From IMG/VR virus record IMGVR_UViG_3300009163_000160, positions 1-25,857 of that record: a DNA stretch of 25,857 bases. One strand, given 5' to 3'. The DNA comes from a virus. Below are positions 3,605-25,857 of the stretch, one piece after another. Position 1 is the first letter of the stretch. Every line of letters starts with the position of its first letter. The notes below the pieces were generated by a model. It saw only the letters and a program-made list of their open reading frames with translations. It did not search any database and had not been told where the DNA came from. A program made the position numbers and the translations under genes.

Positions 3605-4729
3605 ATGGCAAGTTGTAGCAACAGTTCAAATATCCAATCGTCATTGACTTCCCTAAGTGTTGTTCAGGGGGGATCGCGACTAGTTACTGACATCACACGA
3701 ATTTCTGGTCTTACAATTGGAAATGTGATTCGTTATGATGTTGCAACTACTGGGTTTACTGCTTCTAAGGCGAATGATGCTCCAAGTTCAGAAGTATTTG
3801 GTGTAATTGAATCTCAGAATGTTTCCACAAATACATTTAGTGTTGTCATATATGGTTCAATTAATCTTGGAGCATCTTATCTCGCAGATATGGGAAGCGG
3901 TGGGGGATCTGGTGGAAATGACATTTACTTCGTAAGTGGAATTACTGCTGGAACTCTTCAAAATCTTGCACCCACAAGTTTGAATCATATAATCAAACCA
4001 GTATATCAAGCAGCACCACATGGATCATTTTCTGGAATTGTAATGAATTATCTTGGATATAAGATAGGTGGAGATATAGAATCTGTTCTTGAAGATACAG
4101 AATTGGGAAATATTCTAATAGTTCTTGGCACAAATGAATTTACAGAAGGTTATGTTGATGCTTCAATTTCACACGAACTTGCAATAGCAGATTATGGCGA
4201 GTTTTATTCTAAATTTGGAACACAATACGGATATGTTGAAAAGATAGTTGTTAATGAAGCTATAGGTGGTACTATACAAGTTGGAATGAAAGCAAGACAA
4301 CCATCATCTGGATATGTGGGAACTATTGTAAGAACAGATAGTGCAAATGCAACTTTATATCTTTATAAATCACCAACTTCAAGTCTAGCAAGCACTTCTA
4401 AAAATTTGATTGTTGATACAAGCAGTAATACAACTCAGACATTCACTATCGTTTCTACAGAGATATATGCTGTACAATCGCCAGTGATTACTTTATCACA
4501 ACCGTTGAATATTAGTGGTAAAGATGGAACAAATGTTGTAACCCAAAAGGTAAATACTGCAATAAAGGTAAAACCCCAGGGAATAAAAGTAAATGTTCCA
4601 AGGTCAGTGACAGTCACATCTTTAACGGCATCTAATATTGCTCTTGGCATTACATGGGCAGATGTTGGAACTACATTAACAAGTTATGATACAAGATTAA
4701 GAGCACTTGAGGCAATAGTTAAACCATAA
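3605..4729 (+). CDS. Tail structural protein sharing a module with the preceding fibre
   Basis: A 374-residue protein with GGAGA at 3595-3599 as ribosome-binding site. Residues about 35-155 repeat the beta-rich module of the upstream fibre: GNVIRYDVATTGFTASKAND, SSEVFGVIES, then NDIYFVSGITAGTL, IIKPVY and GIVMNYLGY. The two genes therefore share a common building block, interrupted here by a GSGGGSGG linker. The middle is beta-rich (VGMKARQPSSGYVGTIVR). The last 16 residues (TSYDTRLRALEAIVKP) look like a short coiled-coil end of the kind that trimerises or docks fibre proteins. Its TAA shares a base with the ATG of the next gene (TAATG at 4727-4731), implying coupled translation and perhaps a shared structure, for example as connector or chaperone for the large collagen-bearing adhesin. 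No enzymatic motif is visible. Confidence 0.55.
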   Translation: MASCSNSSNIQSSLTSLSVVQGGSRLVTDITRISGLTIGNVIRYDVATTGFTASKANDAPSSEVFGVIESQNVSTNTFSVVIYGSINLGASYLADMGSGGGSGGNDIYFVSGITAGTLQNLAPTSLNHIIKPVYQAAPHGSFSGIVMNYLGYKIGGDIESVLEDTELGNILIVLGTNEFTEGYVDASISHELAIADYGEFYSKFGTQYGYVEKIVVNEAIGGTIQVGMKARQPSSGYVGTIVRTDSANATLYLYKSPTSSLASTSKNLIVDTSSNTTQTFTIVSTEIYAVQSPVITLSQPLNISGKDGTNVVTQKVNTAIKVKPQGIKVNVPRSVTVTSLTASNIALGITWADVGTTLTSYDTRLRALEAIVKP

Positions 4730-7700
4730 TGTTTTACGGAAGCAGTCCATATCTTCAACGAAAACTTCTAGGAATTCTTGGAGCAACTGGTGCTACTGGA
4801 GCAACTGGTGCTACTGGCGCAACTGGTGCTACTGGTTCTCAAGGATCAATTGGAAATACTGGTCCTGGTTTAACAGGAATGACTTATTCAAACGGAGCAA
4901 TAATCCACACATATACTGATGGATCAAGCATTAGTGTTGAATCTCCAAATGGAATACAAGGATCTGATGGTGATTATTATATCTTTGCTGATGGTGAGAA
5001 TATTGTAGCAGGAACTCCAGGAATATTTTCTGGATTATCTTTGAATACATCTCTACCTCAAGATAGAGATGGTATCTTCACAATATCAAGATTGAATATT
5101 CGTGGAATAACAACAAGTTCACAAAATAGTAATCTTACATTAATTGGAATTAGTAGTTCTGTAGAATCCAGGATGATAAATGTTCAATATAATTTATCAG
5201 GTCTTCCATATCTTGGATTGTGTGGTGGATCGGAAGGACAACTGGTTGTATTTCAGAGTGGAACCAGATTTGTTGGATTGACTGGCACAAAGTATAATAT
5301 AGATGCAAAAACGGTTGACCTACAATCTCTAAATTATGGAGAAAGAGTTCAATTTGTAAGACCAATACTAAAAACATTATCCTCAACAACAGGAACAGAT
5401 CAAAGGTATTTCTACTGGCCAATAGATTGCCAAAATGCCAATACATTTGTTTTAAATTCGTTTCAAGATCAACTTATAGTTGGAACTAAAACAGTTGCTC
5501 AGGTAGTTTTAATTAAGAATCCACCAACTGCTAATATAGCAAAAGCAATCACTATAGTTGTACCATCAGGAATCACTGGTGGATTGGTAACTAAATTTGC
5601 TGTTGCCGATGATGTATCTGGATTTACACTAAACGATGCCGATTTCTCTGTATCTTGGCCATTGACATATCCTCCATGCTTCACTAGTGGAATAGATGTG
5701 ATAAATTCTGTACATTTTGATGGAATTTGGTATTCTAATTATGGACTATACAATTCAGGAACAAGTTCTGTTTCATGGAATACATCATATAGCGATTGCC
5801 CAGGATCATATAATATACCAGATCCAGACTATCCAGCCTATGATCCAGTTGGTCTTTGCTGTGTTGGTTGTAGTGGTGCATCCGCTTCATTTGTTGGCAC
5901 ACAATCATCTTGTCAATTGTTAATATCTCAAGGATTGGCACAATTCTTTGAAGGAAAAGATGGAACATATAGTGGATGCACATTCAATGATGCTCCTGTT
6001 GGAATTTGTTGTTATAAAAATGGAAATAATTCCACAATCAAACATCCAAATCTACTTAGATTGTGTGATTGTTTAAGACTGTCTAGAAATTCAAATGAAC
6101 AACCATGGTCATATTGGCAACAAATAGATAGTTGTTGCAAGAATATAAATTGTGTAGATTGTGATGCTGCGTTTAACGATACTGGTGCTTGCTGCAATGG
6201 TGTTGGTGGATGTGAAAACAATACATCTCGCGCTTCGTGTGCTGACAGTGGAAAATATTGGCAAGGAAAAGGAACAGTGTGTCAATATTTTCCACCTAAT
6301 CCACCAGATTTTCCTGCACCTATAGAGATCTGTAAAACAGGAACTGCTGGGTGTTGTGTGACAGGAACATGCTCAGATGTTTCTAGACAATCTTCTTGCT
6401 CTGGATTATATTATGGATGTGGTCATACATGCGGATCATTTGATTGCGTGGATAATCCACAAGTTATATGTCCTTCATGTCTTGATTCAAATCAAATATT
6501 CCAAGTTAAAAAATATAATTCTACTGGCAGTTTTATTGGATTTACTGAAGTCAAAATTGGTGATTTCTTTGCAGGTGGAATTGTTGCTGGTGTATTTAGT
6601 CCAAATGGAGCAACATGCTTAGGAAATAGATCTGCATTTGGTGGATTGTATGATGGATTACCTCTTGGTTCTTATACCGATGATGCGCTTAGAAATTCAA
6701 TCACTGGACCATTAGTATTTAATGAATTAAATTCTGGAACTGAAAAAACATCAAGCGCATATAGAAGTGTGTATGATCCAATGGGATATGGATTTACTTT
6801 GCCAGAAGCACATCAATCCAACTGCGATTCATGGTTAATGATTGTTTCTCCGTGGCCTGCTAGAATACGAGAAGATTGGGATATAACTACTCATCAATTC
6901 ACAGCAACACCATTTGTAGATTCTACTGTTTCACCAGATACAAGTATATTGCCAGCTGCAGACTTCGTACTAAATGAAATTGGCGAAAATCTAGTATACT
7001 CCAGAATAATTAATTTATTCACATGGAGTCATGGTGGAACATCACATTGCTTCACACTCGATGATAATTTAAATTCAATTTTTGATGGACAAGTATTATC
7101 TGAATCATGTGCATTCATTGGAACAGGGATTCGATCCGATGGTGCATATGGAACATTGCCTATACTAAAAAATGGAACTATGGGCAATACTTATTGGGGA
7201 AATGCTACAAGTTTTGATACATGTCCAGATGTAAATCTGTGTGTTGATTGTGAAGATTCCCCATTAGCAAGAACTAGTTTAGGAAGACCTTTCATATTTA
7301 CCAGAAATACTGGATGGTGGTCAAGAAATTGGGGTCTATACAATTCTTGTAGATTGTTCGGTTCTGATGTTGCTGAATATTATCTCAGATCTGGAAATGG
7401 TATTGGTGGGCCACAATTTGCCAATCTTAAAACAATATTTGGTGCTACAGGATATGCTGGATTTACAGCAAATTTCTTTCATACAGGAACACCTACAGCA
7501 AAGACAACTATTGCTGAAGGAACTAGCGTATATAACAGATATTATTATTCTTCAGAACAAATGAAATCTGAAGGATATCCACAAGTATCAAGATGGTATG
7601 TTCCCAGCATAGACGAACTTTCATTCTTAGCAAAACAATGCGTAGATATAAATCTTCAAGAAAAACTATACAATTATGGAATAACTTATGGAATTCCTAT

Positions 7701-8211
7701 TGGAAGTTCTTCCATAGGAGCAAATGGATATGTTTGGTCATCTACTGGAACATTTGATGAAGGTGTCACACGACAATACATTCAAGCAACTGGTGGATCG
7801 CCATGGCCAAATTCTGGAGAAAATGGATCAGAGGTAATATTACCATCCGATTCAAGATATGGGCAGATATTAACAAACCAATTTACCAAGGCGTGGGTAT
7901 TGAAATTTCCAGAACATGATATTGACACACAATTACCACCATCTCCAAATTCGTTTAAAGTTAAAAAAGCACACGACTTTGACGATAAATATGAATTGAG
8001 ATTGGTAAGACTTATTCGTTGTGATCAAAGATATTATGATAATAATTCACCTGAATTTTTAAGAAATAGAACATGGATGGTTCCCAGACTAACTGATGCT
8101 GCGGTATGCAATGGAACAAATCAAGAGATAGATGGAATCAATCCGCAGTACAGTTCTGCCAATTTTACTCTAGATCCACAGACATCCACTATATTCAGAA
8201 ACGCAACATAA
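4729..8211 (+). CDS. Giant tail adhesin: collagen repeat, Cys-rich modules, DUF1566/Lcl-like end
   Basis: A 1160-residue protein. After the start MFYGSSPYLQRKLLGIL come collagen-like Gly-X-Y triplets (GATGATG type, about residues 18-49), expected to form a triple helix. A beta-rich shaft follows (about 55-370). Residues about 375-581 are Cys-rich, with modules beginning GLCC, GICC, GACC and GCC. From about residue 600, GDFFAGGIVAGVFSP and later SWLMIVSP, RWYVPSIDELSFL (about 954) and YVWSSTGTF (about 1002) match the pattern of DUF1566/Lcl C-terminal domains ('GGIV', 'WRLPT.EEL', 'YWSST'), which I infer to be C-type-lectin-like. It ends 'LRLVRLIRC' plus a short tail. Role: trimeric receptor-binding fibre or spike (inference). 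It starts in TAATG overlap with its predecessor and is followed one base later by a paralogue. Confidence 0.75.
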   Translation: MFYGSSPYLQRKLLGILGATGATGATGATGATGATGSQGSIGNTGPGLTGMTYSNGAIIHTYTDGSSISVESPNGIQGSDGDYYIFADGENIVAGTPGIFSGLSLNTSLPQDRDGIFTISRLNIRGITTSSQNSNLTLIGISSSVESRMINVQYNLSGLPYLGLCGGSEGQLVVFQSGTRFVGLTGTKYNIDAKTVDLQSLNYGERVQFVRPILKTLSSTTGTDQRYFYWPIDCQNANTFVLNSFQDQLIVGTKTVAQVVLIKNPPTANIAKAITIVVPSGITGGLVTKFAVADDVSGFTLNDADFSVSWPLTYPPCFTSGIDVINSVHFDGIWYSNYGLYNSGTSSVSWNTSYSDCPGSYNIPDPDYPAYDPVGLCCVGCSGASASFVGTQSSCQLLISQGLAQFFEGKDGTYSGCTFNDAPVGICCYKNGNNSTIKHPNLLRLCDCLRLSRNSNEQPWSYWQQIDSCCKNINCVDCDAAFNDTGACCNGVGGCENNTSRASCADSGKYWQGKGTVCQYFPPNPPDFPAPIEICKTGTAGCCVTGTCSDVSRQSSCSGLYYGCGHTCGSFDCVDNPQVICPSCLDSNQIFQVKKYNSTGSFIGFTEVKIGDFFAGGIVAGVFSPNGATCLGNRSAFGGLYDGLPLGSYTDDALRNSITGPLVFNELNSGTEKTSSAYRSVYDPMGYGFTLPEAHQSNCDSWLMIVSPWPARIREDWDITTHQFTATPFVDSTVSPDTSILPAADFVLNEIGENLVYSRIINLFTWSHGGTSHCFTLDDNLNSIFDGQVLSESCAFIGTGIRSDGAYGTLPILKNGTMGNTYWGNATSFDTCPDVNLCVDCEDSPLARTSLGRPFIFTRNTGWWSRNWGLYNSCRLFGSDVAEYYLRSGNGIGGPQFANLKTIFGATGYAGFTANFFHTGTPTAKTTIAEGTSVYNRYYYSSEQMKSEGYPQVSRWYVPSIDELSFLAKQCVDINLQEKLYNYGITYGIPIGSSSIGANGYVWSSTGTFDEGVTRQYIQATGGSPWPNSGENGSEVILPSDSRYGQILTNQFTKAWVLKFPEHDIDTQLPPSPNSFKVKKAHDFDDKYELRLVRLIRCDQRYYDNNSPEFLRNRTWMVPRLTDAAVCNGTNQEIDGINPQYSSANFTLDPQTSTIFRNAT
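4780..4833 (+). repeat. Three 18-bp repeats encoding GATGAT collagen triplets
   Basis: Three tandem copies of an 18-bp unit (first unit GGAGCAACTGGTGCTACT; the third differs by GGC for GGA) encode Gly-Ala-Thr triplets. The near-identity of the DNA, not only the protein, suggests recent slippage or recombination, so the collagen length may vary between relatives. Confidence 0.9.
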
Positions 8212-8212
8212 T

Positions 8213-11200
8213 ATGATTTACGGGTCATCCAGAATTGTACAAGTAGTATCGGGAAATGTTCCAGGGGCAACTCAAGGACCAACTGGTCCTACTGGGTTTA
8301 CTGGTCCTACTGGTCCTACAGGGTCAACTGGGTCTACTGGAGTTCAAGGACCAATTGGTGCGGGAATTACTGGAGCAACTGCGATAGGTTCCAATGTTGT
8401 ATTCTTTGGTAATGGACTCTCATTCTCATTTTTCGCCAGAGGAAATACTGGAGTTTCAACGGGAGATGAATATTATAAAGTGAACGGTTTAGGTGTCAAT
8501 ACCGAAAACAAATCAACAAACATAATATACACATCTCAAGAAGATTATTATCCAGCAAATAATGATATTGTTAATTTTAAATCATTTAGACTATCTGGTG
8601 GACTTGGTGCGACATTTGTTGGAATGAGTGCGGATGCTGGAACTGTATTTTTGTTTGGAGCAACGGTTTCAGATTCTCAGATACCATTTGGAAATACAGG
8701 AGAAATTCTGTATATAAACAGCAATGCTGGATTTGGAACAGGAACACTAAAAGCAGCTGCTGCTCCAAATACAAGTTTCACTCCAAGCACCCAACAATTA
8801 ATAATTGATCAAGTATTTTCAAGAGAATCTATATTTAAAAATAAAAACTGGTCAACAATTGGAACTATTCCATTTAGATTCAACAATAGTATTCCATTTT
8901 CATATTATGGTGGATTGACTACTGATACATTTGGTAAATCTGTTGTAGAAAATAATATTTTACCAAAATTTATATTTGAAGTTGGTTCCAGATATAAACT
9001 CGCAAGTCCAGTTGATAGTATCTCGCTTGGTCAGAAAATATTCTTAGGATTTACCAGTGGATCTACATTTGATACAATCACTTTCATTAATTCCACAGGA
9101 ATATCATACACCAATACATATCTTCCACAAAATGTGACTAGAGATAAAATAGGATCTTGTTGTTACTGTAAGACGAATGTGACAGGTCAGGTTTGTTTAG
9201 ATTATGTTTCTCAAGATTATTGCAATGCTATTTCTGGTGTATTTGGAGCAAGTGCTTGTGTTGAGAGATCCACAAGTTCAGATTGCTATTCTGAAGGTGC
9301 TTGTTGTGTATATGATCCAGAAACAGAAAGCGTTCGTTGCCTCAACACAACCGCTGCGCGATGTGAACAGTTTGGTGGAGTATTCAATGAAGCAAAGACA
9401 TGTAGTTCTGTATGGGTAAATGGGCAATTATTCACATGTCCAACAAATTTATGTAATAGTGGTGGAGCACAAATAGGAAAATGCTGTGTTAATGGAAGAT
9501 GTTACAATCTATCTAGCGGAGATTGTGCGTCTATTGCAGGATCTGTATTTGTTGCTGGACAATTATGCACATCTGAAGAAGGTGATTCTGTTTGTTGTTC
9601 TGTAAGTTATGATCTAAAGGGTGCTTGCTGCACGGGTAGCAATTGTATAGATGATGTTCTGCCTCAAAATTGCAATGGAATCTATCAAGGTGCTGGAACA
9701 AAATGTAAAGAAGTCAATTGCTGCGGGTATTCATTCTCCGATGATTATTTCAAGGGAGCATCTGGAACTAAAAATGCATGTAAAGCATTAGGAGCAGATC
9801 AAATTTATTCGTGTCTTCAACCAGGAGATAAACTTGGTGGTGGATATTTTGTAGGATTCGTAGGTATGCCAAATCCTTGCGATTCATTCCTTTCGCCATC
9901 CTTGGCATTTGGTGAACCACTTGAATGTATGATCTATCCAAGAGGTAGATTGGAAAATGTTCCAAGTTGGTATCTCAAGACATGCAAGGGAATAACAGGA
10001 AATGATAATACAGGATCTATTGAATACTTTGCACGAACATATCCAAAGATTCTTCCAAAGAATGCATTGGATTCTCGCTGTATGCTCAAGGCAGGAGCAC
10101 CATTTGTTCAACAAGCATATGCATTGAATGGAGTTGTTTGGCCATCAGAATTGATGTTTGAGGGTGGAACAAATTATTCCGCAAATCGTGGAGCATTCTC
10201 GTATTCATTAGTTGGTTCAGGTCTAGCAGTAGAATACTTAGATCAGAATAATGAAACATTATACAAATATCTCTCACAAAGAGTCTATGGAGAATCAGAT
10301 ATTCATATTCTTTGGGCATTGATAATTGGACCAGAGGATGTTGAAGTTTCTACAACACCAAATGGAACAGATGGTGGATCTAGACTTCTCAGTTGGGGAA
10401 TGATGCAAGGAGCACATAAACCTGGAGTGACTGGTGTTCCATTGGATATAGTGCTGGAAGAAATTCCAACCTATCCAGTAGATGGATTACTCAATACAAG
10501 AATTCACGATTCGTCTTCAAAGAATAAACCAGAATATTGGTTCAGAGGAACTGGAACTACAGATGCAAAAGCATATATGCGCTTCTCATTTGGAAATGGT
10601 CCAGCATGGACATCAAGTGTTAGAGAATCTCAAATTACAACAAACATAAATTCATTTAAAGAAGCATATACTGAAATGTGGAATAATAAAAATCCACTAT
10701 CCTCTGCTATAAGACAAATTTCTAATATAAATGAATCTGGTCTTTATGGACATAATGATTGGTACATTCCTAGCATCATTGAATTGAACTACATCTACAA
10801 TAATCTTCCACAACTAAATGCCGCATTTGCGGTCAATGGCGATCAACTATTGTCGGGAAGCGAATATTGGAGCTCAACAAGTGTTACTCGTCTCAAGAGT
10901 TGGAGTCCTTTTGTTCCTCTTGATAAAGATCAATATGTTTTAGAAAATATTGATCCCCAAATAGAACCATATCTTTCTGACAATAGGTTAACAAGTAATA
11001 ATATTAATTTCTTCGCCAATGAAGATGAAGCATATAAATTCACAATGGCAGTTGCTAATGGACAGAAAATGCTCACGCAGGTATTTGATGGCAATTCTAC
11101 TACTGAAGGTATGATCAAATCCCAAAATAGAAATGCTAGAGTTGCTAATCTAAGACCAGTTAGACGAATTCCTTTAGTGGTTACTTGTAATAATTTCTAC

Positions 11201-11290
11201 TATAGTGCATCTATTCTAAATAATTATTGGTCATCAGGATCTACAGGATGTGCGTCTTGTCTTGACATTGTAGAAGGAATGTGTACATGA
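8213..11290 (+). CDS. Giant tail adhesin paralogue with collagen, Cys-rich and DUF1566/Lcl-like domains
   Basis: A 1025-residue paralogue of the upstream adhesin, starting one base after its stop. The start MIYGSS echoes MFYGSS of the neighbour. Residues about 18-50 are collagen-like (GPTGPTG, GSTGSTG, GPIG). A beta-rich shaft follows to about 310. Residues about 315-505 hold four Cys-rich modules, the clearest being GKCCVNGRC and GACCTGSNC with their following Cys. The C-terminal DUF1566/Lcl-like domain runs from about 535: LQPGDKLGGGYFVGF, LWALIIGP, NDWYIPSIIELNYIYNNL (about 848), YWSSTS (about 884) and LRPVRRI (about 981). It closes with a short Cys-containing tail. I infer a trimeric host-recognition protein with a disulfide- or metal-stabilised stalk. 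Which surface it binds is not visible. Its TGA overlaps the next start (ATGA). Confidence 0.75.
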   Translation: MIYGSSRIVQVVSGNVPGATQGPTGPTGFTGPTGPTGSTGSTGVQGPIGAGITGATAIGSNVVFFGNGLSFSFFARGNTGVSTGDEYYKVNGLGVNTENKSTNIIYTSQEDYYPANNDIVNFKSFRLSGGLGATFVGMSADAGTVFLFGATVSDSQIPFGNTGEILYINSNAGFGTGTLKAAAAPNTSFTPSTQQLIIDQVFSRESIFKNKNWSTIGTIPFRFNNSIPFSYYGGLTTDTFGKSVVENNILPKFIFEVGSRYKLASPVDSISLGQKIFLGFTSGSTFDTITFINSTGISYTNTYLPQNVTRDKIGSCCYCKTNVTGQVCLDYVSQDYCNAISGVFGASACVERSTSSDCYSEGACCVYDPETESVRCLNTTAARCEQFGGVFNEAKTCSSVWVNGQLFTCPTNLCNSGGAQIGKCCVNGRCYNLSSGDCASIAGSVFVAGQLCTSEEGDSVCCSVSYDLKGACCTGSNCIDDVLPQNCNGIYQGAGTKCKEVNCCGYSFSDDYFKGASGTKNACKALGADQIYSCLQPGDKLGGGYFVGFVGMPNPCDSFLSPSLAFGEPLECMIYPRGRLENVPSWYLKTCKGITGNDNTGSIEYFARTYPKILPKNALDSRCMLKAGAPFVQQAYALNGVVWPSELMFEGGTNYSANRGAFSYSLVGSGLAVEYLDQNNETLYKYLSQRVYGESDIHILWALIIGPEDVEVSTTPNGTDGGSRLLSWGMMQGAHKPGVTGVPLDIVLEEIPTYPVDGLLNTRIHDSSSKNKPEYWFRGTGTTDAKAYMRFSFGNGPAWTSSVRESQITTNINSFKEAYTEMWNNKNPLSSAIRQISNINESGLYGHNDWYIPSIIELNYIYNNLPQLNAAFAVNGDQLLSGSEYWSSTSVTRLKSWSPFVPLDKDQYVLENIDPQIEPYLSDNRLTSNNINFFANEDEAYKFTMAVANGQKMLTQVFDGNSTTEGMIKSQNRNARVANLRPVRRIPLVVTCNNFYYSASILNNYWSSGSTGCASCLDIVEGMCT
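8276..8362 (+). repeat. Collagen-like Gly-X-Y repeat (GPTGPTG/GSTGSTG)
   Basis: About ten consecutive Gly-X-Y triplets, mostly Gly-Pro-Thr and Gly-Ser-Thr, encoded by related 9-bp units such as GGTCCTACT. The codons are partly degenerate, so this run is older or less homogenised than the one at 4780. Confidence 0.85.
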
Positions 11291-14004
11291 GTAATAGTCC
11301 AATAACTAATATAATATCTGTAGGAAAAACTGGATCAGTAGGACCAGTTGGTTCTACTGGTGCTACTGGTAATAGAGGAAATACTGGTAATGGTGGTATT
11401 ACTGGAGAACGAGGAATACACTTTTTAAGTTCTCGCGGATTTGCGAACGGAATAACATTAACATTCTCTGATTTAAGTACAATTGCTGTAAATGGGGCTT
11501 TCAGAGGAACAACATTTATTGATAAGACTTCTGGATTAGTTCAAGGATCAAATACAGCATCAAGTTCCTTCCTTACACAATATGGATTATTTTCCGCTGT
11601 AAATGGTGGAACATTTCAATTTAAAGGATTGTGTGCTTATGGTTCACTAAGAGCATCTTTAACTGGACCAGCAAATGAATATATTTCCATTGATACGATC
11701 TATTGGGGTAAAGATCTTATAGGAAATTATGATGCTGGTACAATGACTCCTGGAAGATTAACATTTCTAGGAACTCCAACAGTAGTTAATGGTTCTGGAA
11801 TCACACATACTCAATTAAATAGCGATAATATTAGTTTTGGTCATACTGGTACATTTAATTTTCAAAACACATTTTTTAGTTCTGGAACATCAGATGATAC
11901 AAGTTACAACTTAAATGCTGGAGCAAAAGTATCTACTATTGGACCAATTCGTAAAGGAGCATTTTCAGGATTAACTGGAAATAATCCAATTGGTGGAGTT
12001 GGGACCACGCAGGGAATATACATTGACGCAAATTCTGCTGGCGCATTCATTCTTCATACACCAATTGGAATACGAGGAATCAGCGGAAATTTCAATTCAA
12101 ATGAAGTTGATTCAATAACACTAGTAATTGATTCTGATGATGTGTGGAAATTTCCAGAAAATATTTACTTTGAACCAGATGAAAACTATCTTTCTTGTGG
12201 TAAGAATATAATTGGACTCATGACATATGATGGTGGTGAAACCTGGTTGGCAACTGTATCGCATCGTGGTCATGGTGTGGCAGATGTAAACAGAGCATGT
12301 ATTCCAGGATATTTATTTGGTTCTTGCTGTTATAATAATCCAGATGGTACTCTTGAATGTTTGGATTATACTTCTCGTTCAACATGTGATAAATTATTTG
12401 GAAATTTTAGTCCAGCGAAGTCGTGTGAAGATTCATGTGGTGGCGAAAACGGAATTTGTTGCTCAAATGGTAAATGTTTAGGTGAAATTACTGTTGCTTT
12501 ATGTGATCAATTTGGTGGTCAGTATTGGAGTGGACTCAATTGTACAGACTACACTGGAAATTTGAATTACCCAATTGGCGAACTAAGTTCAGATCAACTA
12601 AAAGAGCAAGGAAGTTTTTGTTATAATAACTGTAATGATACTCCAGTTGTTTGCTGTAAGGATGGTCAATGTTTAGGAAACTATACAAGAGTTCAATGTG
12701 AATTGATTCTTGGTGGTAGATCATTGACCGCTGCGTCTTGCTCTGAAGCAGATTGCTGCGATTATGGGACAATTAAGGGTGCTTGTTGTAAATGTAATTC
12801 TGTTAATGGAATTATACAATACGAATGTATACCCGATTTATCTCCATCAGCTTGTAAATCTCTTGGTGGGTCTTTCATGGGTCCAGGAAAACAATGCAAT
12901 GAGGTAAGTTGTGGTTGTGTTTGTGGACCAATTGGACCCTCTGGACCATCTGGACCCTCTGGACCATCTGGACCCTCTGGACCTAATGACGCTATTGGAA
13001 TTTGTTGCAAAAATGGAACATGCCTACCAAATATTGGAAGCAAAGCAGAATGTTCTGCCGCATGTGGAAATTGGTTAGATAAAATTTATTATGATCAACA
13101 AGTACCCACCCCAGGTAGTTATCAGTTTGGATCAGACCCAAACGACTGTGAATTCTGTGCGTTACACCGACCTGTTATGGTTTTATCGCAATTTTTAATC
13201 CCTGGCGATTGCAGTCCTTTTATTCAATTTCTAAGATTTTCTATGTCTATTGGCGATAGCAGTTGTGCAGTGTACCCCGAGTTAGATTTATTCATCGCTG
13301 ACCCTGGTGACCAAAGACCTCCAATAACTACTATTAATACACCTAGTGATGATCTTAATATGACAGGTGCTAACATAGCCTTGATTTCTGATCTATTCTT
13401 CAACATATATGGTGTTACAATTCCCTTAAGGTCGGCAGTAGGTGTAAGACAACAACTAATTGATTTAATGTCTTGTCCTCTCTCAACTGAAAATTTAGAG
13501 ATTATAATTGAACTTGGAGATAGAATGTTGAAGGCCTGGCTCGAAGCTGAGTGGATTATAAATGGATGGACTCCTTGCTCACAGAAGTGTTGTACATGTG
13601 AGGGTGAGAACCCTACGGCGCCTGGTTTACCTTTTTGTCTACCAATTGGTGACGACCGAATGACTGTTCGCAACCTTTGTCAATACAGAGACATATGTCT
13701 TGATCTAGGGATTGCCAATGACGCGATGGGTAATCCAGGTTGTCAGTGCGGTGGTCCTGAGAATACTGGAGATTCACCTTGTGGAAAGCCAATTGCTGAA
13801 AGACTGAATTGTCCTTCATTGGACCACCCTGATTCTGAATATTGTAATTGGTCCGAAATCAATACTTGTCAGTGTTCAAATTCAGGTCTTACTGATGATC
13901 TAATTAAGAGTGTAAAGATGTATCTAAATAGTACAGATTATGTTTGTGTTCCTGTTTCATATACAGATTTCTCAGGTTACGAACTCTGCGACGGGGAATC
14001 CTAA
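11287..14004 (+). CDS. Giant tail adhesin with two collagen segments and a distinct Cys-rich C-terminus
   Basis: I place the start at the ATG at 11287, which overlaps the upstream TGA (ATGA) and has AGAAGGA eight bases before it; a GTG at 11281 in frame lacks this spacing. The product is about 905 residues. Residues about 13-43 are collagen-like (VGSTGATGNRGNTG), followed by a beta-rich shaft. Residues about 345-592 carry five Cys-rich modules (GSCC, GICC, VVCC, GACC, GICC). A second collagen stretch of GPSGPSG triplets (about 547-566) is inserted between the fourth and fifth. Unlike its paralogues it has no WYxPS/WSST domain. Residues about 600-905 form an unrecognised Cys-rich module (PLSTENLEIIIELGDRMLK, then CCTCEGE, CQCGGPE, CQCSNSG). 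That module uses CCT/CCC and GGT/GGC far more than the CCA/GGA-rich upstream part, suggesting domain swapping. Confidence 0.7.
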   Translation: MSNSPITNIISVGKTGSVGPVGSTGATGNRGNTGNGGITGERGIHFLSSRGFANGITLTFSDLSTIAVNGAFRGTTFIDKTSGLVQGSNTASSSFLTQYGLFSAVNGGTFQFKGLCAYGSLRASLTGPANEYISIDTIYWGKDLIGNYDAGTMTPGRLTFLGTPTVVNGSGITHTQLNSDNISFGHTGTFNFQNTFFSSGTSDDTSYNLNAGAKVSTIGPIRKGAFSGLTGNNPIGGVGTTQGIYIDANSAGAFILHTPIGIRGISGNFNSNEVDSITLVIDSDDVWKFPENIYFEPDENYLSCGKNIIGLMTYDGGETWLATVSHRGHGVADVNRACIPGYLFGSCCYNNPDGTLECLDYTSRSTCDKLFGNFSPAKSCEDSCGGENGICCSNGKCLGEITVALCDQFGGQYWSGLNCTDYTGNLNYPIGELSSDQLKEQGSFCYNNCNDTPVVCCKDGQCLGNYTRVQCELILGGRSLTAASCSEADCCDYGTIKGACCKCNSVNGIIQYECIPDLSPSACKSLGGSFMGPGKQCNEVSCGCVCGPIGPSGPSGPSGPSGPSGPNDAIGICCKNGTCLPNIGSKAECSAACGNWLDKIYYDQQVPTPGSYQFGSDPNDCEFCALHRPVMVLSQFLIPGDCSPFIQFLRFSMSIGDSSCAVYPELDLFIADPGDQRPPITTINTPSDDLNMTGANIALISDLFFNIYGVTIPLRSAVGVRQQLIDLMSCPLSTENLEIIIELGDRMLKAWLEAEWIINGWTPCSQKCCTCEGENPTAPGLPFCLPIGDDRMTVRNLCQYRDICLDLGIANDAMGNPGCQCGGPENTGDSPCGKPIAERLNCPSLDHPDSEYCNWSEINTCQCSNSGLTDDLIKSVKMYLNSTDYVCVPVSYTDFSGYELCDGES
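11329..11415 (+). repeat. Collagen-like Gly-X-Y repeat near adhesin N-terminus
   Basis: Gly-X-Y triplets (GSVGPVGSTGATGNRGNTG, then GNGGITGERG) follow the short N-terminal segment, at the same relative place as in the two upstream adhesins. The DNA is diverged, with no long identical units. Confidence 0.75.
12925..12984 (+). repeat. Internal GPSGPSG collagen repeat in near-identical 18-bp units
   Basis: Alternating 9-bp units GGACCCTCT and GGACCATCT encode Gly-Pro-Ser triplets in the middle of the Cys-rich region, bracketed by VCGPIG and GPNDAIGICC. The 18-bp period is nearly perfect, pointing to recent expansion independent of the N-terminal collagen. Confidence 0.9.
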
Positions 14005-15512
14005 TGTCTTCAGTACAGTTTAGATCAAGAATAAAACCAGCATTTGACTACTCAGATAAACTGAATAGTTATGGTGTTTGTTGTGGGACTACAGGTGCAG
14101 ACAATAAAACAATAAAATCGTTTACTGAATGTTTTAATGAAGGTGGATATTTTATTCCTACACTAGATGGAAACGCTGACAGTGTTTCATGTCCAGATAG
14201 AGATACTCGTCTTGGATGTTGTTGTGCGTGTTCGTATGTAACTCCAGGAGAATTAAATCAAGTACCTACTTTGGATAGCGAGGGAAACACATCAACTCCA
14301 TATCTTGCATCGGGAACAACAAGTAATGTTTCTAAATGCGAATGTGACCGAGTGAATGGAAAATGGACAGAAGGAACTTGTCCAATATTGACAGCAGATA
14401 CTTGGCAAACTCAATGTTTAAACTCAAGCAGATTAGATGCTAGAGCACCAAGATCTTGTTGTCATTTAGAATTTGATGAAGATACAGGTTGGCCAACTTC
14501 TATTACATGTAAAGATGTTTGTTCTAGTAGAGATTGTGCGCTTTTGGGAACTGAAACATATCCATCGGTGTTTGGAGACAATAGATGTACTACACCGCTC
14601 CGAGAAGGCGATCAAACTACAACATGTATTGATTCACCGTATTATTCATATATGCTTACAAGGTCTTCATTATATGAAGGATTTGTAATGGGGTCTTGTT
14701 ATATCTTGGAAGATAACAATGGATCTTTAGAATATTCGTGTTCTATAACACCACAAGCATCGTGTGCTGGATATTGGATCGAAGATCAGGATGAAAACAA
14801 TTCTTTCTGTACTTCAAGTTTTCAACCAATCAATCCACAAAAAATATCAGGAAAATATCAAGTCCAAACGATGGGTCTTACAGCATTTAATAATTTAGGA
14901 TTGACTTCTGGAGACACATTTCAAGGTGGAATTTATATTGGAATATTCAAACCACCAGTATTAAATGGTAAAAGCAGTGAATTATATGGAAATTTAAGTT
15001 TTGCAAATCCAACATTGACAAACATGTATGCCGATTCTGTCGGAGGTACTGCTTCACAGTGGGCATTGATTGTAAATGAAACTAAATATTCTGTACCATT
15101 TATAACAGCAAATGAAATTGATGTAGACTATACCACTTCACTGTGGGATGGATATTACAATACTTATGGAGATGGAGTATTCAATGGAATTAATAATGCT
15201 CTGACCAATACAATTAGATACGCTGATAGGGGAGGATTTATTGATTATTATCTACCATCAATATATGAATTGTATTTCTACAATGCCTATCTTTATAGAA
15301 ATACTAAAAATATATCTGGAAATGTAATGTCGTCTTCCATATTCAATACTAAATACTTAAACAAGACCACACAGAAATCAAAGATATCTGGAAAAGGATT
15401 TGTGTATGGAGTGGGTATGAGTATCAATTATAGTGTAAATTATAAAACTTTACTTATAGAAAAAACAAATACAGAGAGTGCTTTATTTTTTAGAAGAATC
15501 GTATTACAATAA
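14004..15512 (+). CDS. Fourth Cys-rich tail adhesin, DUF1566/Lcl-like end, no collagen
   Basis: The start is the ATG at 14004 in a TAATG overlap with the upstream gene, with GGGGAA five bases before it; the frame extends upstream to 13944 but that part lies inside the previous gene. The 502-residue product lacks collagen repeats. It begins MSSVQFRSRIKPAFDY, a typical short anchor. Cys-rich modules follow from about residue 24 (YGVCCGTTG, LGCCCACS, RSCCHLEF, GSCYILED), more divergent than in the other three genes. From about residue 300, TSGDTFQGGIYIGIFKPP, SQWALIVNE, YYLPSIYELYFYNAYLY (about 416) and a final FFRRIVLQ match the shared DUF1566/Lcl-like pattern, though a clear WSST is missing. 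It is inferred to be a shorter receptor-binding protein or spike tip, built with the upstream three. Confidence 0.65.
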   Translation: MSSVQFRSRIKPAFDYSDKLNSYGVCCGTTGADNKTIKSFTECFNEGGYFIPTLDGNADSVSCPDRDTRLGCCCACSYVTPGELNQVPTLDSEGNTSTPYLASGTTSNVSKCECDRVNGKWTEGTCPILTADTWQTQCLNSSRLDARAPRSCCHLEFDEDTGWPTSITCKDVCSSRDCALLGTETYPSVFGDNRCTTPLREGDQTTTCIDSPYYSYMLTRSSLYEGFVMGSCYILEDNNGSLEYSCSITPQASCAGYWIEDQDENNSFCTSSFQPINPQKISGKYQVQTMGLTAFNNLGLTSGDTFQGGIYIGIFKPPVLNGKSSELYGNLSFANPTLTNMYADSVGGTASQWALIVNETKYSVPFITANEIDVDYTTSLWDGYYNTYGDGVFNGINNALTNTIRYADRGGFIDYYLPSIYELYFYNAYLYRNTKNISGNVMSSSIFNTKYLNKTTQKSKISGKGFVYGVGMSINYSVNYKTLLIEKTNTESALFFRRIVLQ

Positions 15513-16137: not shown

Positions 16138-16947
16138 ATGTCTTCAGTAAACGCACCAAATTCAAGAGAAACGCTTATAGAACATGCTCTTCGTGCTCTC
16201 GGGCATCCCGTAATCCAAATAAATGTAGATCAGCAACAATGCGAGGATCGTCTTGATGAAGCATTGCAATATTTTACCACCAGACACTATGATGGTGTTA
16301 TAAAAATGTTTTTCAAGTATCAAGTAACTCAGACGGATCTGGATCGCGGGTTTATAAATGTTTCGGATATTCAAAACCCAGCTAGCGATCCCAATGGACC
16401 CGATGGCACTAATATTGTGTCTGTTGTTAAGATATTCAGATTCGGCACTCTTTCTGGTGTTAATATGTTTGATGTCAGATATCAGTTGGCATTGACCGAT
16501 TACTTTGGAATCAATCGTGGGTTGAACGGAAGTTCATCAACTCCTCTTGCTGGGTATCAAGCGACTATGTCTTACATCAGTCTTCTTGAACAATTTTTTA
16601 GTCCAGAGAAGTCATTAAGATTCAATAAAGTAACAAATAAAATCTATGTGGATGCTTTTAGTCAAGATATAGATGCTGGTGGATATTTAATAATTGAATC
16701 ATATGCAGAACTAGACCCAGATGTGTATACTAAAATTTATGATGATCGCATGGTGAAGAAGTATGTCATTGCTTTGATTAAAAAGCAATGGGGTGCAAAC
16801 ATGTTGAAGTATGATGGTGTTCAACTTCCAGGCGGCATCACTTTCAAGGGACAACAGATATATCAGGATGCCATGGCAGAGATTGTTGCGATAGAACAAG
16901 AGTTTGAAAGATCATACGAACTACCGATAGATTTCATGATTGGATAA
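16138..16947 (+). CDS. gp13: Neck / head-completion protein gp13
   Basis: A 269-residue protein. The N-terminal pattern HALRALGHPVIQINVDQQQC followed by EDRLDEALQYFTTRHYDGV is the hallmark of T4-like gp13 neck proteins in marine phages ('LRRLG.PVI.INVD...DR.DEA...Y'). T4 gp13 is 309 residues, so this is slightly short. gp13 joins gp14 to seal the filled head and make the tail-docking site. The gene is followed three bases later by gp14, as in T4, and opens the operon-like run to gp17. Its ribosome-binding site lies in a hairpin arm overlapping a late promoter, so expression is probably late and tied to that promoter. The C-terminus (IVAIEQEFERSYELPIDFMIG) is also typical. The gp13 and gp14 labels follow the T4 order. 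Confidence 0.87.
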   Translation: MSSVNAPNSRETLIEHALRALGHPVIQINVDQQQCEDRLDEALQYFTTRHYDGVIKMFFKYQVTQTDLDRGFINVSDIQNPASDPNGPDGTNIVSVVKIFRFGTLSGVNMFDVRYQLALTDYFGINRGLNGSSSTPLAGYQATMSYISLLEQFFSPEKSLRFNKVTNKIYVDAFSQDIDAGGYLIIESYAELDPDVYTKIYDDRMVKKYVIALIKKQWGANMLKYDGVQLPGGITFKGQQIYQDAMAEIVAIEQEFERSYELPIDFMIG

Positions 16948-18623: not shown

Positions 18624-19096
18624 GTGACGAAAAACTAACAGCAGAAGAAAAGTTATCTGAGGTTCTGGACATAGAAATTTTGCCCAAGGAAGAACCAAAG
18701 ACTATAGTTCAATCTGAAATCTTCATAAAAGAAGTAAAGATAAAACGAAAAGACCAAGTGCGACAGGATTATGATTCTGCTCGTAAAAATATGAAAGAAC
18801 TCATAAATCGTGGATTTGAAGCTCTAGATGGAGTTATGAGGGTAGCAGAGGCGGGCGATTCTCCTAGAGCATATGAGGTCGCCTCTATTCTTATGAAAAC
18901 TGTAAGTGAGATTAACACCGATCTAATGGGTATTCACAAAACTACTGCGGAAGCATTAGGCGTAAATAAAGTCGTAAAGACCACCACAAATAATTCAATA
19001 TTTGTTGGATCTACTCGCGATCTTCAAAATATTATTAATCAGTCTCGTAGTCAATTGAAGGCGATACCAACCGAAGAAGTGGAATATGACAGCTAA
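18620..19096 (+). CDS. gp16: Small terminase subunit gp16
   Basis: The start is the ATG at 18620, overlapping the gp15 stop (ATGA), with GGAGAG ahead of it; a GTG at 18614 in frame is less likely. The product is 158 residues (T4 gp16 is 164). After an acidic N-terminal region comes the family's central helical hairpin: VRQDYDSARKNMKELINRGF, then VAEAGDSPRAYEVASILMK and the helix SEINTDLMGIHKTTAEALG (residues about 50-115). This is the oligomerising coiled-coil core with the 'DSPR..EV...LM' signature shared with T4 gp16. The subunit recognises concatemeric DNA and regulates the large terminase. Its end overlaps the gp17 start by 11 bases, so the two subunits are translationally coupled. Confidence 0.92.
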   Translation: MSDEKLTAEEKLSEVLDIEILPKEEPKTIVQSEIFIKEVKIKRKDQVRQDYDSARKNMKELINRGFEALDGVMRVAEAGDSPRAYEVASILMKTVSEINTDLMGIHKTTAEALGVNKVVKTTTNNSIFVGSTRDLQNIINQSRSQLKAIPTEEVEYDS

Positions 19097-20813
19097 AAAA
19101 GATGGTTATCTTGGTAATCCAAATTTAAAACCCGTAGGTGTGCAACAACAATTCACACCAAATCAGGTAAAAGAATATATTAAGTGTGCAGCAGAACCTG
19201 CCTACTTTGTGGAAAAATATGTAAAGATTGTAGCAGTAGATAAGGGTCTTGTTCCTTTTGCAATGTATAACTTTCAGAAAGACCTTATTGATATACTACA
19301 TCATAATAGATTCGTAATAGGAAAGTTACCTCGTCAGGTAGGTAAGACTACCACCGTAGGTGCTTACCTTTTACATTATGTTCTATTCAATCAAAATATG
19401 AATGTTGCAATTCTTGCAAACAAACAATCTACTGCCATTGAAATTTTAGGCAGAATTAAGATGGCATATGAATATTTGCCTAAGTGGTTGCAGCAAGGCG
19501 TAATTGAATGGAATAAGGGTTCTATTGTTCTGGAAAACGGATCAAAGATTCTAGCAAGTGCCACCTCTTCGTCTGCAATCCGTGGCGGTTCATTTAATTG
19601 CATCCTGCTCGACGAATTTGCCCACATTCCTACCCAAATTGCTGAAGAGTTCTTCACCTCAGTGTATCCAACCATCACTTCTGGTCAATCTACCAAGATG
19701 TTCATCATCTCCACCCCAAACGGTCTTAATATGTTTTATTATTACTGGAAGGGTGCTATAAACAATCAAAATGGTTATGTGCCATTTGAAGTTCATTGGA
19801 GTCAGGTTCCAAAATATCCAGGTGGTCCACTCAGAGATGATAAGTGGAAAGAGGATATGATAATCAAGACTTCCGAGAAACAGTTTGAACAAGAGTTCGA
19901 ATGTGACTTCTTGGGCAGTTCCAATACTTTGATATCATCTGCTAAATTACACACTTTGGTATATAACAAACCAATTTTAAGAACCAAAGATGGAATGTGT
20001 GTATATCAGGAACCACAGAGAAAAGACCCCGATGTGGAAAAATCTCAGGATCATCTTTATTTTATAACTGCCGATGTCGCAGAAGGTCAAGGCAAAGACT
20101 ATACCGCTATGACCGTAATAGATGTAACTGAATTCCCATACAGGGTAATTGCCACCTATAAAAACAATACAGTATCACCCCTTCTATTCGCATCAGTTCT
20201 TAGAACAGTTGCCAAGAAGTATAATAACGCATATGTTCTAGTTGAGATTAATAGCATAGGCACGGAAGTTGCCAATATATTACACACCGATCTAGAATAT
20301 GAAAATATAGTTAAAACCACCATGATGGGTAGAAAGGGTCAAATTATTACAGAGGGATTTGGTCCTGGAAAAAAGATACAGATGGGTGTTAAAACTTCAG
20401 TATTGACTAAAAAGGTTGGATGTCAAGTACTAAAGAACATGATTGAAGAAGATAAACTCATTGTTGAAGATGCCGACATTATCTCAGAATTTACAACATT
20501 TATCTCCAAAAAACAAAGTTTTGGAGCAGATGAAGGACATAATGACGACTTAGTGATGTGTTTAGTTTTATTTTCATGGGCGACTCGTCAACAGTATTTC
20601 AAGAATTTGACCGATATGGATGTTAGACTTGCGATGTATCAGCAAGATATTGAGAAAATTGAAGAAGATATGTTACCTTTTGGTTATTTTCTTGACGGAA
20701 TCGAAGATTTTGAAGATGAGGCAGAAGACAAAAAATGGGGTATGTCTTCAGAAAATTGGCTTATAACAGATAAAAAAAATTATAACTTGCCATGGGATTC
20801 GTATAAAAAATAG
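19086..20813 (+). CDS. gp17: Large terminase gp17 (packaging ATPase and nuclease)
   Basis: A 575-residue motor protein (T4 gp17 is 610). ATPase domain: Walker A LPRQVGKTT (residues about 81-89), Walker B CILLDEFA (172-179, D176 and catalytic E177) and the coupling motif IISTPNG (about 207-213). Nuclease domain with an RNase H-like fold: ITADVAEG with D330, LVEINSIGTE with E388, and GHNDDLVM with D487/D488, corresponding to T4 D401, E458 and D542. All key residues are present, so it should be active. It docks on the gp20 portal, pumps DNA with ATP and cuts when the head is full. No intein or intron interrupts it. A late promoter and a 74-base gap separate it from gp18. Confidence 0.98.
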   Translation: MTAKKDGYLGNPNLKPVGVQQQFTPNQVKEYIKCAAEPAYFVEKYVKIVAVDKGLVPFAMYNFQKDLIDILHHNRFVIGKLPRQVGKTTTVGAYLLHYVLFNQNMNVAILANKQSTAIEILGRIKMAYEYLPKWLQQGVIEWNKGSIVLENGSKILASATSSSAIRGGSFNCILLDEFAHIPTQIAEEFFTSVYPTITSGQSTKMFIISTPNGLNMFYYYWKGAINNQNGYVPFEVHWSQVPKYPGGPLRDDKWKEDMIIKTSEKQFEQEFECDFLGSSNTLISSAKLHTLVYNKPILRTKDGMCVYQEPQRKDPDVEKSQDHLYFITADVAEGQGKDYTAMTVIDVTEFPYRVIATYKNNTVSPLLFASVLRTVAKKYNNAYVLVEINSIGTEVANILHTDLEYENIVKTTMMGRKGQIITEGFGPGKKIQMGVKTSVLTKKVGCQVLKNMIEEDKLIVEDADIISEFTTFISKKQSFGADEGHNDDLVMCLVLFSWATRQQYFKNLTDMDVRLAMYQQDIEKIEEDMLPFGYFLDGIEDFEDEAEDKKWGMSSENWLITDKKNYNLPWDSYKK

Positions 20814-24288: not shown

Positions 24289-24813
24289 ATGTCAAATAGC
24301 AAACAAATTATAGAATCACTTTTTGCCGACGATCTATACACAGCAAAAAAAGCAATCACCGAAGTACTCACTAGTAAAATGGCACAAGCATTAGAAGAAA
24401 AATTAATTGATTTTGCGCCAGAAGTTTTCAATGAAAGCTCAAAACCAGATTTCCTTGATCTTGATAGAGATGGAAATAAAACAGAACCCATGAGAAAAGC
24501 AGCCAGGGATAAAAAGAAAGTGGGTAAAAGAGTCAATATGAAAGAAGATATTGAAGATCTTGCTGAAGATTTTGAAAATCAACTTAAGTCATTAGTTGAA
24601 GAAATTGAAGAAGAAACTGGTGAACAATTATCTGAAGAAGAAATTATTGATATTGCTAATATGCTTATTGATATGATCGCTGAAGATCATGTTGATGGTG
24701 ACGAAGATCACGACGATGATGAAGACGATGACGACGATGATGATGACGAAGACAATGACGAAGACCAACCAACTGCAACCAATTATCGTCTTGGGACTAA
24801 TTCCGAGTATTGA
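24289..24813 (+). CDS. Acidic prohead core protein, gp67-like
   Basis: A 174-residue protein with a good AGGAGA ribosome-binding site, placed between portal and protease where T4 encodes core proteins gp67 and gp68. Its N-terminus (QIIESLFADDLYTAKKAITE, then VLTSKMAQALEEKLIDFAP) parallels T4 gp67 ('LIEAIKSNDLVAARKLFAEAM'). Like gp67 it ends in an extremely acidic tract, here an almost unbroken Asp/Glu/His run at residues about 137-161, followed by QPTATNYRLGTNSEY. At 174 residues it is twice gp67 (80) and includes a central helical section (EEIEEETGEQLSEEEIIDIA), so it could combine roles of gp67 and gp68. gp67 is part of the scaffold core and is cut by gp21 during maturation. The assignment rests on position, N-terminal pattern and acidity. 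Confidence 0.65.
   Translation: MSNSKQIIESLFADDLYTAKKAITEVLTSKMAQALEEKLIDFAPEVFNESSKPDFLDLDRDGNKTEPMRKAARDKKKVGKRVNMKEDIEDLAEDFENQLKSLVEEIEEETGEQLSEEEIIDIANMLIDMIAEDHVDGDEDHDDDEDDDDDDDDEDNDEDQPTATNYRLGTNSEY
24694..24770 (+). repeat. GAC/GAT-rich microsatellite encoding poly-acidic tract
   Basis: A run of GAC, GAT and GAA codons encodes the acidic tail of the gp67-like protein. Mixed Asp codons show that it is not a pure slippage product, but length variation between relatives is likely. Confidence 0.8.
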
Positions 24814-25477: not shown

Positions 25478-25857
25478 ATAATAATAAAAAACTATTATCG
25501 GAAGAAGCAATATCTGCAATAAGATCTAGAATTCCTACTATGTCAAAGGACATTCATGAAGGAATAGTCAGTGATATTGCGGGTCTTGCCAGAGTTGCAG
25601 GAAGTGCAGTCGCAGCAGGTGCTAGAGTTGGAGCAGATGCGCTTGCTAGAGGTACTGGAACTGTAGCAGACGCTGCATTGAGAGGCACTAGAACTGTAGC
25701 AGACGCTGCATTAAGAGGTACTGCGGTTGGAGCAGCTGCGGTTGGTAGAGGCACTAGAACTGTAGCAGACGCTGCATTAAGAGGTACTGCGGTTGGAGCA
25801 GCTGCGGTTGGTAGAGGCACTAGAACTGTAGCAGACGCTGCATTAAGAGGCACTAGG
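25474..25857 (+). CDS. Ala/Gly/Arg-rich 11-residue-repeat protein, possible internal head protein (3' truncated)
   Basis: The ATG at 25474 overlaps the gp21 stop (ATGA) and the frame stays open for 128 codons to the window edge, so the gene is incomplete. An N-terminal segment (MNNNKKLLSEEAISAIRSRI) leads to DIHEG at residues 26-30. I-H-E followed by Gly fits the gp21 cleavage rule, (I/L)-x-Glu then a small residue. From residue 39 the protein is built from 11-residue units, best seen as TRTVADAALRG alternating with TAVGAAAVGRG, eight complete units before the edge. Most units carry Arg-Gly at positions 10-11 and are net basic. T4 would have scaffold gp22 here, but I see no resemblance to it. 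I infer an internal head protein with a removable targeting peptide, perhaps DNA- or membrane-interacting. A scaffold variant is the main alternative. Confidence 0.6.
   Translation, partial: MNNNKKLLSEEAISAIRSRIPTMSKDIHEGIVSDIAGLARVAGSAVAAGARVGADALARGTGTVADAALRGTRTVADAALRGTAVGAAAVGRGTRTVADAALRGTAVGAAAVGRGTRTVADAALRGTR
25588..25857 (+). repeat. 33-bp (11-codon) tandem repeats with a 66-bp higher-order unit
   Basis: Eight 33-bp units are in frame, the first two diverged. From 25654 the DNA is highly similar. The 66-bp block at 25720-25785 is repeated at 25786-25851 with a single third-position difference at its last base, showing recent duplication of a two-unit block. The array runs on past the window edge. 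Confidence 0.93.

Follow-up and report, generated by a model that had tools for sequence, protein, structure and literature searches.

In the gp37/gp38 adhesins of T-even phages the host-range tip is exchanged by recombination on a conserved shaft, and hypervariable segments lie between glycine-rich motifs. Tail fibres and tailspikes with C-terminal intramolecular chaperones need their end for trimer folding, with or without self-cleavage, and known diversity-generating retroelements have their variable region near the 3' end of a tail-fibre gene. The T4 fibritin (wac) gene presumably sits just upstream of gp13. That T4-like fibres exchange modules at their ends is well known (PMC3797505, PMC7029224). 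In pelagimyophages the region from VrlC to the neck gene gp14 has been named the host recognition cluster; in pelagimyophages and cyanomyophages this cluster is described as variable, placed between tail/baseplate and neck genes, and furnished with tail fibres and collagen-repeat proteins (PMC7029224). Fibritin is described as a fibre gene among T4-like structural genes, with a fixed N-terminal part and a swapped C-terminal module whose types are closely tied to phylogeny (PMC3797505).

The window analysed here, the whole 25,857-nt stretch from an IMG/VR record, belongs to a T4-like phage by its gp13 and terminase matches. Its gp13 neck gene matches gp13 proteins in 2,253 phage records, of which the 15 listed reach at most 44% identity. 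For the gene at 19086-20813 the matches are T4-like terminase large subunits, with at most 57% identity among the 15 matches listed. A 117-kb contig represents the same population as the window (identity of at least 99.98% over the 14.8-16.9 kb compared). 5' of gp13 lie four large genes in which Cys-rich stretches recur: gene 1 (4729-8211) and genes 2 to 4 (Table 1). At the same place the genes of Methylophilales phage Melnitz-3 are annotated 'tail fiber' and those of Synechococcus phage S-PM2 'virion structural protein', while Pelagibacter phage HTVC008M has oxygenase genes directly 5' of gp13 instead. The place is also that of the host recognition cluster and is likewise variable; the unit of variation described for that cluster is a gene island, whereas in gene 3 it is a cassette inside one gene (PMC7029224). 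We consider it probable that gene 3 encodes a collagen-like virion fibre protein of this tail-fibre locus in which residues 549-862 form an exchangeable, probably receptor-binding cassette.

Gene 3 carries the Gly-X-Y repeat of a collagen-like phage fibre protein (Pfam Collagen), and residues 341-547 of its body form a Cys-rich domain with 28 Cys. Judging from relatives, which begin MSNSPI or MSSSAI, the ATG at 11287, two codons past the listed GTG (11281-11289), is the likelier start. The clusters CCTCEGE and CQCSNSG, which the initial annotation had pointed out, are indeed found among the roughly 307 residues at the end of the frame.

Table 1. Features of gene 3 and its neighbours, in window coordinates
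Feature	Position	Strand	Basis or remark
Gene 2, paralogous neighbour of gene 3	8213..11290	+	collagen-like start, related Cys-rich domain, Lcl_C-like end
Gene 3, whole, collagen-like Cys-rich fibre-like protein	11281..14004	+	open frame, 907 codons from GTG
N-terminal collagen-like Gly-X-Y repeat, residues 15-45	11323..11415	+	Pfam Collagen 27.7 bits, cut-off 27.2
Conserved body, residues 3-548	11287..12924	+	homology to residue 543-553 in 11/12 loci
18-bp tandem repeat, 3.3 copies	12924..12983	+	Tandem Repeats Finder; codes Gly-Pro-Ser linker at 5' junction
Probably exchangeable cassette, residues 549-862	12925..13866	+	relatives' alignments, codon shift; 13080 falls inside
Cassette segment, residues 641-700	13201..13380	+	silent divergence from L004 raised
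Cassette segment, residues 751-862	13531..13866	+	silent divergence from L004 raised
Conserved C-terminal tail, residues 863-907	13867..14001	+	leave-one-out profile, alignments; predicted beta-hairpin
Gene 4, next gene	14004..15512	+	conserved neighbour, 35 loci; vertical marker (tree)
gp13 neck protein	16138..16947	+	second vertical marker (tree)

No cultured relative was found when residues 601-907 (the search of the 3' end alone that the initial annotation had proposed), the whole of gene 3, one tail peptide and gene 4 were compared by tblastn with 50,697 phage records. IMG/VR yielded 4 loci when searched with the block, 9 with a six-sequence profile, 35 with gene 4 and 56 with a profile of the body. 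We inspected the upstream regions of 25 of the 35 gene 4 loci, leaving out L017 and L019 (population of L016) as well as L040 and L042-L048 (partial matches, contig ends). We took on 52 of the 56 body-profile loci, without L101, L116 and the pair L064 and L065, which come from the population of L063; among the 52 genes, nine extended past the end of their locus.

Alignments with these uncultured relatives establish a three-part layout in which residues 1-548 are a conserved body, 549 to about 862 a variable cassette and the final 34-45 residues a conserved tail. Among the 78 pairs of 13 complete genes with closer body, median identity is 0.52 over the body, 0.23 over the cassette (shuffled 0.22) and 0.41 over the last 34 residues (shuffled 0.21), and in 47 of the pairs the cassette lies less than 0.03 above its own shuffled value. 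The main gene 3 match ends at residue 543-553 in 11 of the 12 loci with longer context, L036 (residue 635) being the exception; L011, L031 and L034 have an additional, separate match to part of the cassette. In these 12 loci gene 2 and gene 4 both match over the covered length. Uniform conservation of the whole of gene 3, which had been named as evidence against a recombined domain, was found in 0 of the 12. The pattern is seen well in L034 and L029, which share 68% identity over residues 1-551, nothing detectable from there to residue 934, 43% over the last 54 residues and 68% over gene 4.

The slot between body and tail measures 56-1250 residues in the 32 complete genes that remained after 11 loci with near-duplicates, split genes or merged frames were dropped. 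Longer still, L084 (7549-13548, with L118) has about 2,390 residues after the body in one frame, by arithmetic from coordinates. A 2,000-residue part of a similar insert in its relative L081 (7480-13479, with L120) matches PKD and Ig-like families (Pfam). Both records have a similar tail directly before gene 4, with 474 bases of the L081 gene lying outside the sequence read. Candidate slot contents are Cys-rich blocks, arrays of PKD/Ig-type repeats or a separately encoded protein. The last form is seen in two loci. In L010 (1-3242) the frame of the body closes with a Gly-rich stretch, and a 402-residue gene for cassette and tail begins at an ATG that overlaps the body stop; in L011 (5861-9150) an ATG at 7984, two bases past the body stop, opens a second gene of 388 residues. 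It follows from these split genes that cassette and tail can form a separate protein and that the tail stays with the cassette, a parallel to the separate-gene and fused forms of the T-even gp37/gp38 adhesins. At the other extreme, the cassette-poor L108:6001-7710 and L110:91-1530 have about 90 residues after the body, with a possible tail-like strand at the end.

The core of the tail across the family is the last 34 residues. A leave-one-out profile of the last 40 residues (per-domain E <1e-3 at Z=1000) recognises a terminal tail in 34 of 44 genes, the number left from 55 C-termini after rough de-duplication in which near relatives remain (e.g. L086/L087, L069/L072, L073/L035). By eye, a C(V/I)xxxxD-like pattern can still be made out in three of the ten missed genes (L112, L114, L120), is not clear in L103, L104, L106, L111 and L117, and is uncertain in the cassette-poor L108 and L110.

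To follow the history of the cassettes we compared them by blastp, which sorts 25 rows into six components by single linkage. Of these, the 101-residue fragment L035 is a component of its own, labelled D through kinship with L036, and L021/L022 belong to type A by one 97-residue match only (L021 is labelled A2 in the gp13 tree). Type D (L036:2928-4112, L034:8848-9984) shares its first part with type A and not the rest; the shared beginning is a GICCKNGTC unit followed by a YxFG...C..C...RP motif. The cassette types are therefore not all unrelated, and the arrangement hints at exchange inside cassettes.

Trees of the neighbouring genes place different cassette types as sisters. The gene 4 tree pairs L030 (A) with L032/L033 (B) and L034 (D) with L023/L029 (B) as sisters, each with support 100/100, and the gp13 tree repeats both pairings with 98/92 and 97/92 (without L032). 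On the evidence of these neighbour-gene trees, cassettes have been swapped twice between close relatives; the marker genes themselves may have recombined. A second line of evidence comes from L004, which is 95% identical to the window's phage over residues 1-560 and 65% over residues 601-907, and carries an additional Cys-rich block some 145 residues long. At codons for identical residues, silent differences from L004 amount to 34/485 in the body (residues 51-560) and rise to 8/27 in residues 641-700 (p=7e-4 against body) and 12/46 in residues 751-862 (p=2e-4), while they number 4/53 in 576-640, 4/39 in 701-750 and 1/40 in 863-907 (tail). Pooled over residues 641-862 the count is 24/112, again above the body (p=2e-5). 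Silent divergence is thus raised in exactly the variable segments, which points to imported DNA.

The initial annotation had noticed the region through its codons, and here its observations stand in part. A break in codon use, whose absence had been named as a ground for refutation, is present and significant: none of 200 within-amino-acid permutations was as strong, and the best division into two segments falls at codon 670 (nt 13288) and gains 46.7 in log-likelihood, compared to a permutation mean of 30.0. Proline moves away from CCA as claimed, from 20/26 before codon 601 to 6/25 after (Fisher 2.3e-4), and the CCA share of the 3' block is the lowest among 57 Pro-rich 250-codon windows of the 117-kb contig. 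GC3 is 86/591 (0.15) before codon 601 and 77/295 (0.26) after (p=4.7e-5). When gene 3 is split on GC3 only, the observed gain is reached by 0 of 1000 permutations; nine other long window genes show no comparable break, the strongest being reached by 12 of 300. The description of GGA as used almost throughout upstream was too strong, GGA accounting for only 51 of 91 Gly codons. The boundary at 13080 is not found either: the codon break lies at 13288 with all codons or at 12001 with GC3 alone, and homology breaks at about 12925. Since the best GC3-only split is at codon 241, GC3 climbs gradually, with no step at 13080. DUF1566/Lcl motifs are indeed absent from the 3' end, as had been reported, and by Pfam they are absent from the rest of gene 3 as well.

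Codon use fails as a general sign of exchange. Among the 13 genes compared, GC3 and Pro use both shift only in those of L004 and the window's phage, so that the codon signature marks the cassette of their lineage and not cassettes generally; in L073 and L079 body and cassette differ in GC3 alone, in opposite directions. The main interpretation, a recombined domain, nevertheless survives, with the block at about 12925-13866 being unrelated or remotely related among phages with similar body and neighbour genes and with the tree conflicts described above. The other suggestion, an ancestral end that was kept, holds for the last 34-45 residues, which most relatives have kept, and not for the rest of the end.

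One explanation for the variable block that involves no exchange of DNA is fast divergence in place, in which one ancestral domain changed under diversifying selection and weak constraint. The detectable beginning shared by types A and D would fit this, as would the graded series formed by seven A-type rows (25-66% mutual identity over the cassette) and the clustering of cassette types on the trees, with 6 changes compared to a shuffled mean of 12.2. The clustering also means that exchange is occasional at this depth. We consider divergence in place unlikely, as L034 and L029 have cassettes without similarity next to bodies and gene 4 that are equally close, the two conflicts appear in both marker genes, silent divergence is raised in the cassette too, gene 3 shows a codon shift, and slot lengths run from 56 to about 2,390 residues. 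Rewriting of the gene 3 3' end by a diversity-generating retroelement would agree with the place of the variable region, which lies towards the 3' end in a putative tail-fibre gene. We give this almost no weight: reverse transcriptase (PF00078) was found in none of the five records searched, all five fragmentary, the 117-kb contig holds no template repeat, and the differences include long insertions and unrelated blocks.

The codon shift could also be local and selective, for example for translation speed or folding of a Cys-rich domain, with no foreign origin. In its favour, 9 of 13 relatives show no difference at p<0.01 between body and cassette in either Pro use or GC3, GC3 in the window's core genes is 0.19-0.31 and as high as in the block, and no donor phage for the cassette was found. 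This seems to us rather unlikely, set against a proline use at the extreme of the 117-kb contig and a shift that coincides with the block marked by the evidence for exchange. As for the tail, its DNA might be kept for the translation start signals of gene 4, whose ATG overlaps the gene 3 stop (overlap at 14002-14006), and not for the protein. Silent differences do make up a somewhat lower fraction in the tail, 0.35 compared to 0.43 in the body. Such a DNA signal is very improbable, however, because conservation extends over about 100 nt, far beyond the length of a ribosome-binding site, and because different codons are used in 257 of 742 amino-acid-identical comparisons of the tail. The latter indicates that the protein is what is kept.

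Under the preferred reading of gene 3 as a fibre with an exchangeable cassette, recombination would swap the cassette while the body and the C-terminal tail on either side of it stay fixed. The Gly-Pro-Ser repeat at the 5' junction, near whose position several relatives have Pro-, Gly- or Ser-rich stretches, may help this recombination. The body would attach the fibre to the virion, with the cassette as the outer, host-facing part, so that a swap would alter the outer, probably receptor-binding surface and leave virion attachment and assembly unchanged. That the cassette contacts the host we infer from the locus, the collagen stem, the Lcl_C-like paralogue and the PKD/Ig-type repeats in the slot. 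The proposed plan of gene 3 resembles Legionella Lcl, described as a collagen stem with a C-terminal adhesive domain (PMC11162425), and gene 2 next to it has an Lcl_C match below threshold (31.4 bits, Pfam cut-off 34.9). Gene 3 itself was rejected as an Lcl-type adhesin, having no DUF1566/Lcl_C match in Pfam.

The tail may close or register the fibre and may help its folding or assembly. By analogy we speculate that it is a small cap, which would hold the presumably trimeric chains in register, fold them, or dock the tip; T4 fibritin, whose 30-residue C-terminal unit starts trimerisation, offers a precedent for a small C-terminal folding unit (PMC3797505). A model of residues 575-907 has a predicted two-strand hairpin in the tail (pLDDT ~70). 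It is conceivable, as a tentative reading, that the tail is a portable cap, possibly a trimerising or docking hairpin, in a broad uncultured T4-like clade, with the slot of about 56 to about 2,390 residues near universal and gene 3 acting as an interchangeable tool holder.

Like gene 3, fibritin combines a fixed N-terminal part with a swapped module, but gene 3 keeps its very end and swaps the part before, whereas fibritin swaps the C-terminal module; fibritin types follow phylogeny closely, whereas gene 3 shows two swaps between near relatives (PMC3797505). The fibritin shaft is a coiled coil and the gene 3 body is collagen-like and Cys-rich. Membership in the fibritin family was rejected, with no fibritin match in Pfam and a body model that has strands and no long helices, at low confidence (pTM 0.34). 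Fibres and tailspikes with C-terminal chaperones likewise have a fixed C-terminal element behind a binding region; that of T5 has 133 residues, the gene 3 tail about 34-45, and no known chaperone domain (e.g. Peptidase_S74) is among the Pfam matches at the gene 3 C-terminus. To the gp37/gp38 adhesins no sequence relation of the block was seen by Pfam or PHROG matches. No description of a body-cassette-tail layout was recognised among titles and the starts of abstracts of the papers listed. As far as these searches show, gene 3 follows a strategy of evolution that is known, in a gene layout that is new: an internal cassette lies between a collagen-like, Cys-rich body and a short conserved terminal tail, within a clade to which the searches here matched no cultured phage.

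Searches by domain and structure gave no fold for the cassette. Pfam and PHROGs had no match to residues 601-907, PHROGs had none to nine post-body regions (two of them, L031 and L024, from near relatives), and profile A5 had 0 matches to PDB sequences. The structure prediction proposed in the initial annotation, run on residues 575-907, gave an overall pLDDT of 60 and pTM of 0.62, with a weak model of the cassette for which Foldseek found nothing at E<=0.001 in PDB and BFVD and VIA-align nothing at Z>=2. Fold matches of the body model were not used (best E 5e-3 at TM <=0.14). In bacterial and archaeal genome contigs 21 pattern matches to the body included no relative, and hence gave no hint of the host.

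Many uncultured aquatic T4-like phages have unknown hosts, and gene 3 provides a marker for the likely host-binding part; phage-host links could be sought in metagenomes through cassettes instead of whole genomes. Should the tail prove to be a true cap, diverse domains could be displayed on a collagen-like stem with it as a small, natural end unit.

Elsewhere in the window, gene 1 may hold a second variable region, residues ~375-945 being ~30-34% identical in L024, L029 and L034. Acidic, Asp/Glu-rich short tandem repeats occupy 24669-24765 within the gene at 24289-24813, and a 66-bp tandem repeat (2.6 copies, 99% matches) lies at 25648-25856 within the last, truncated gene.
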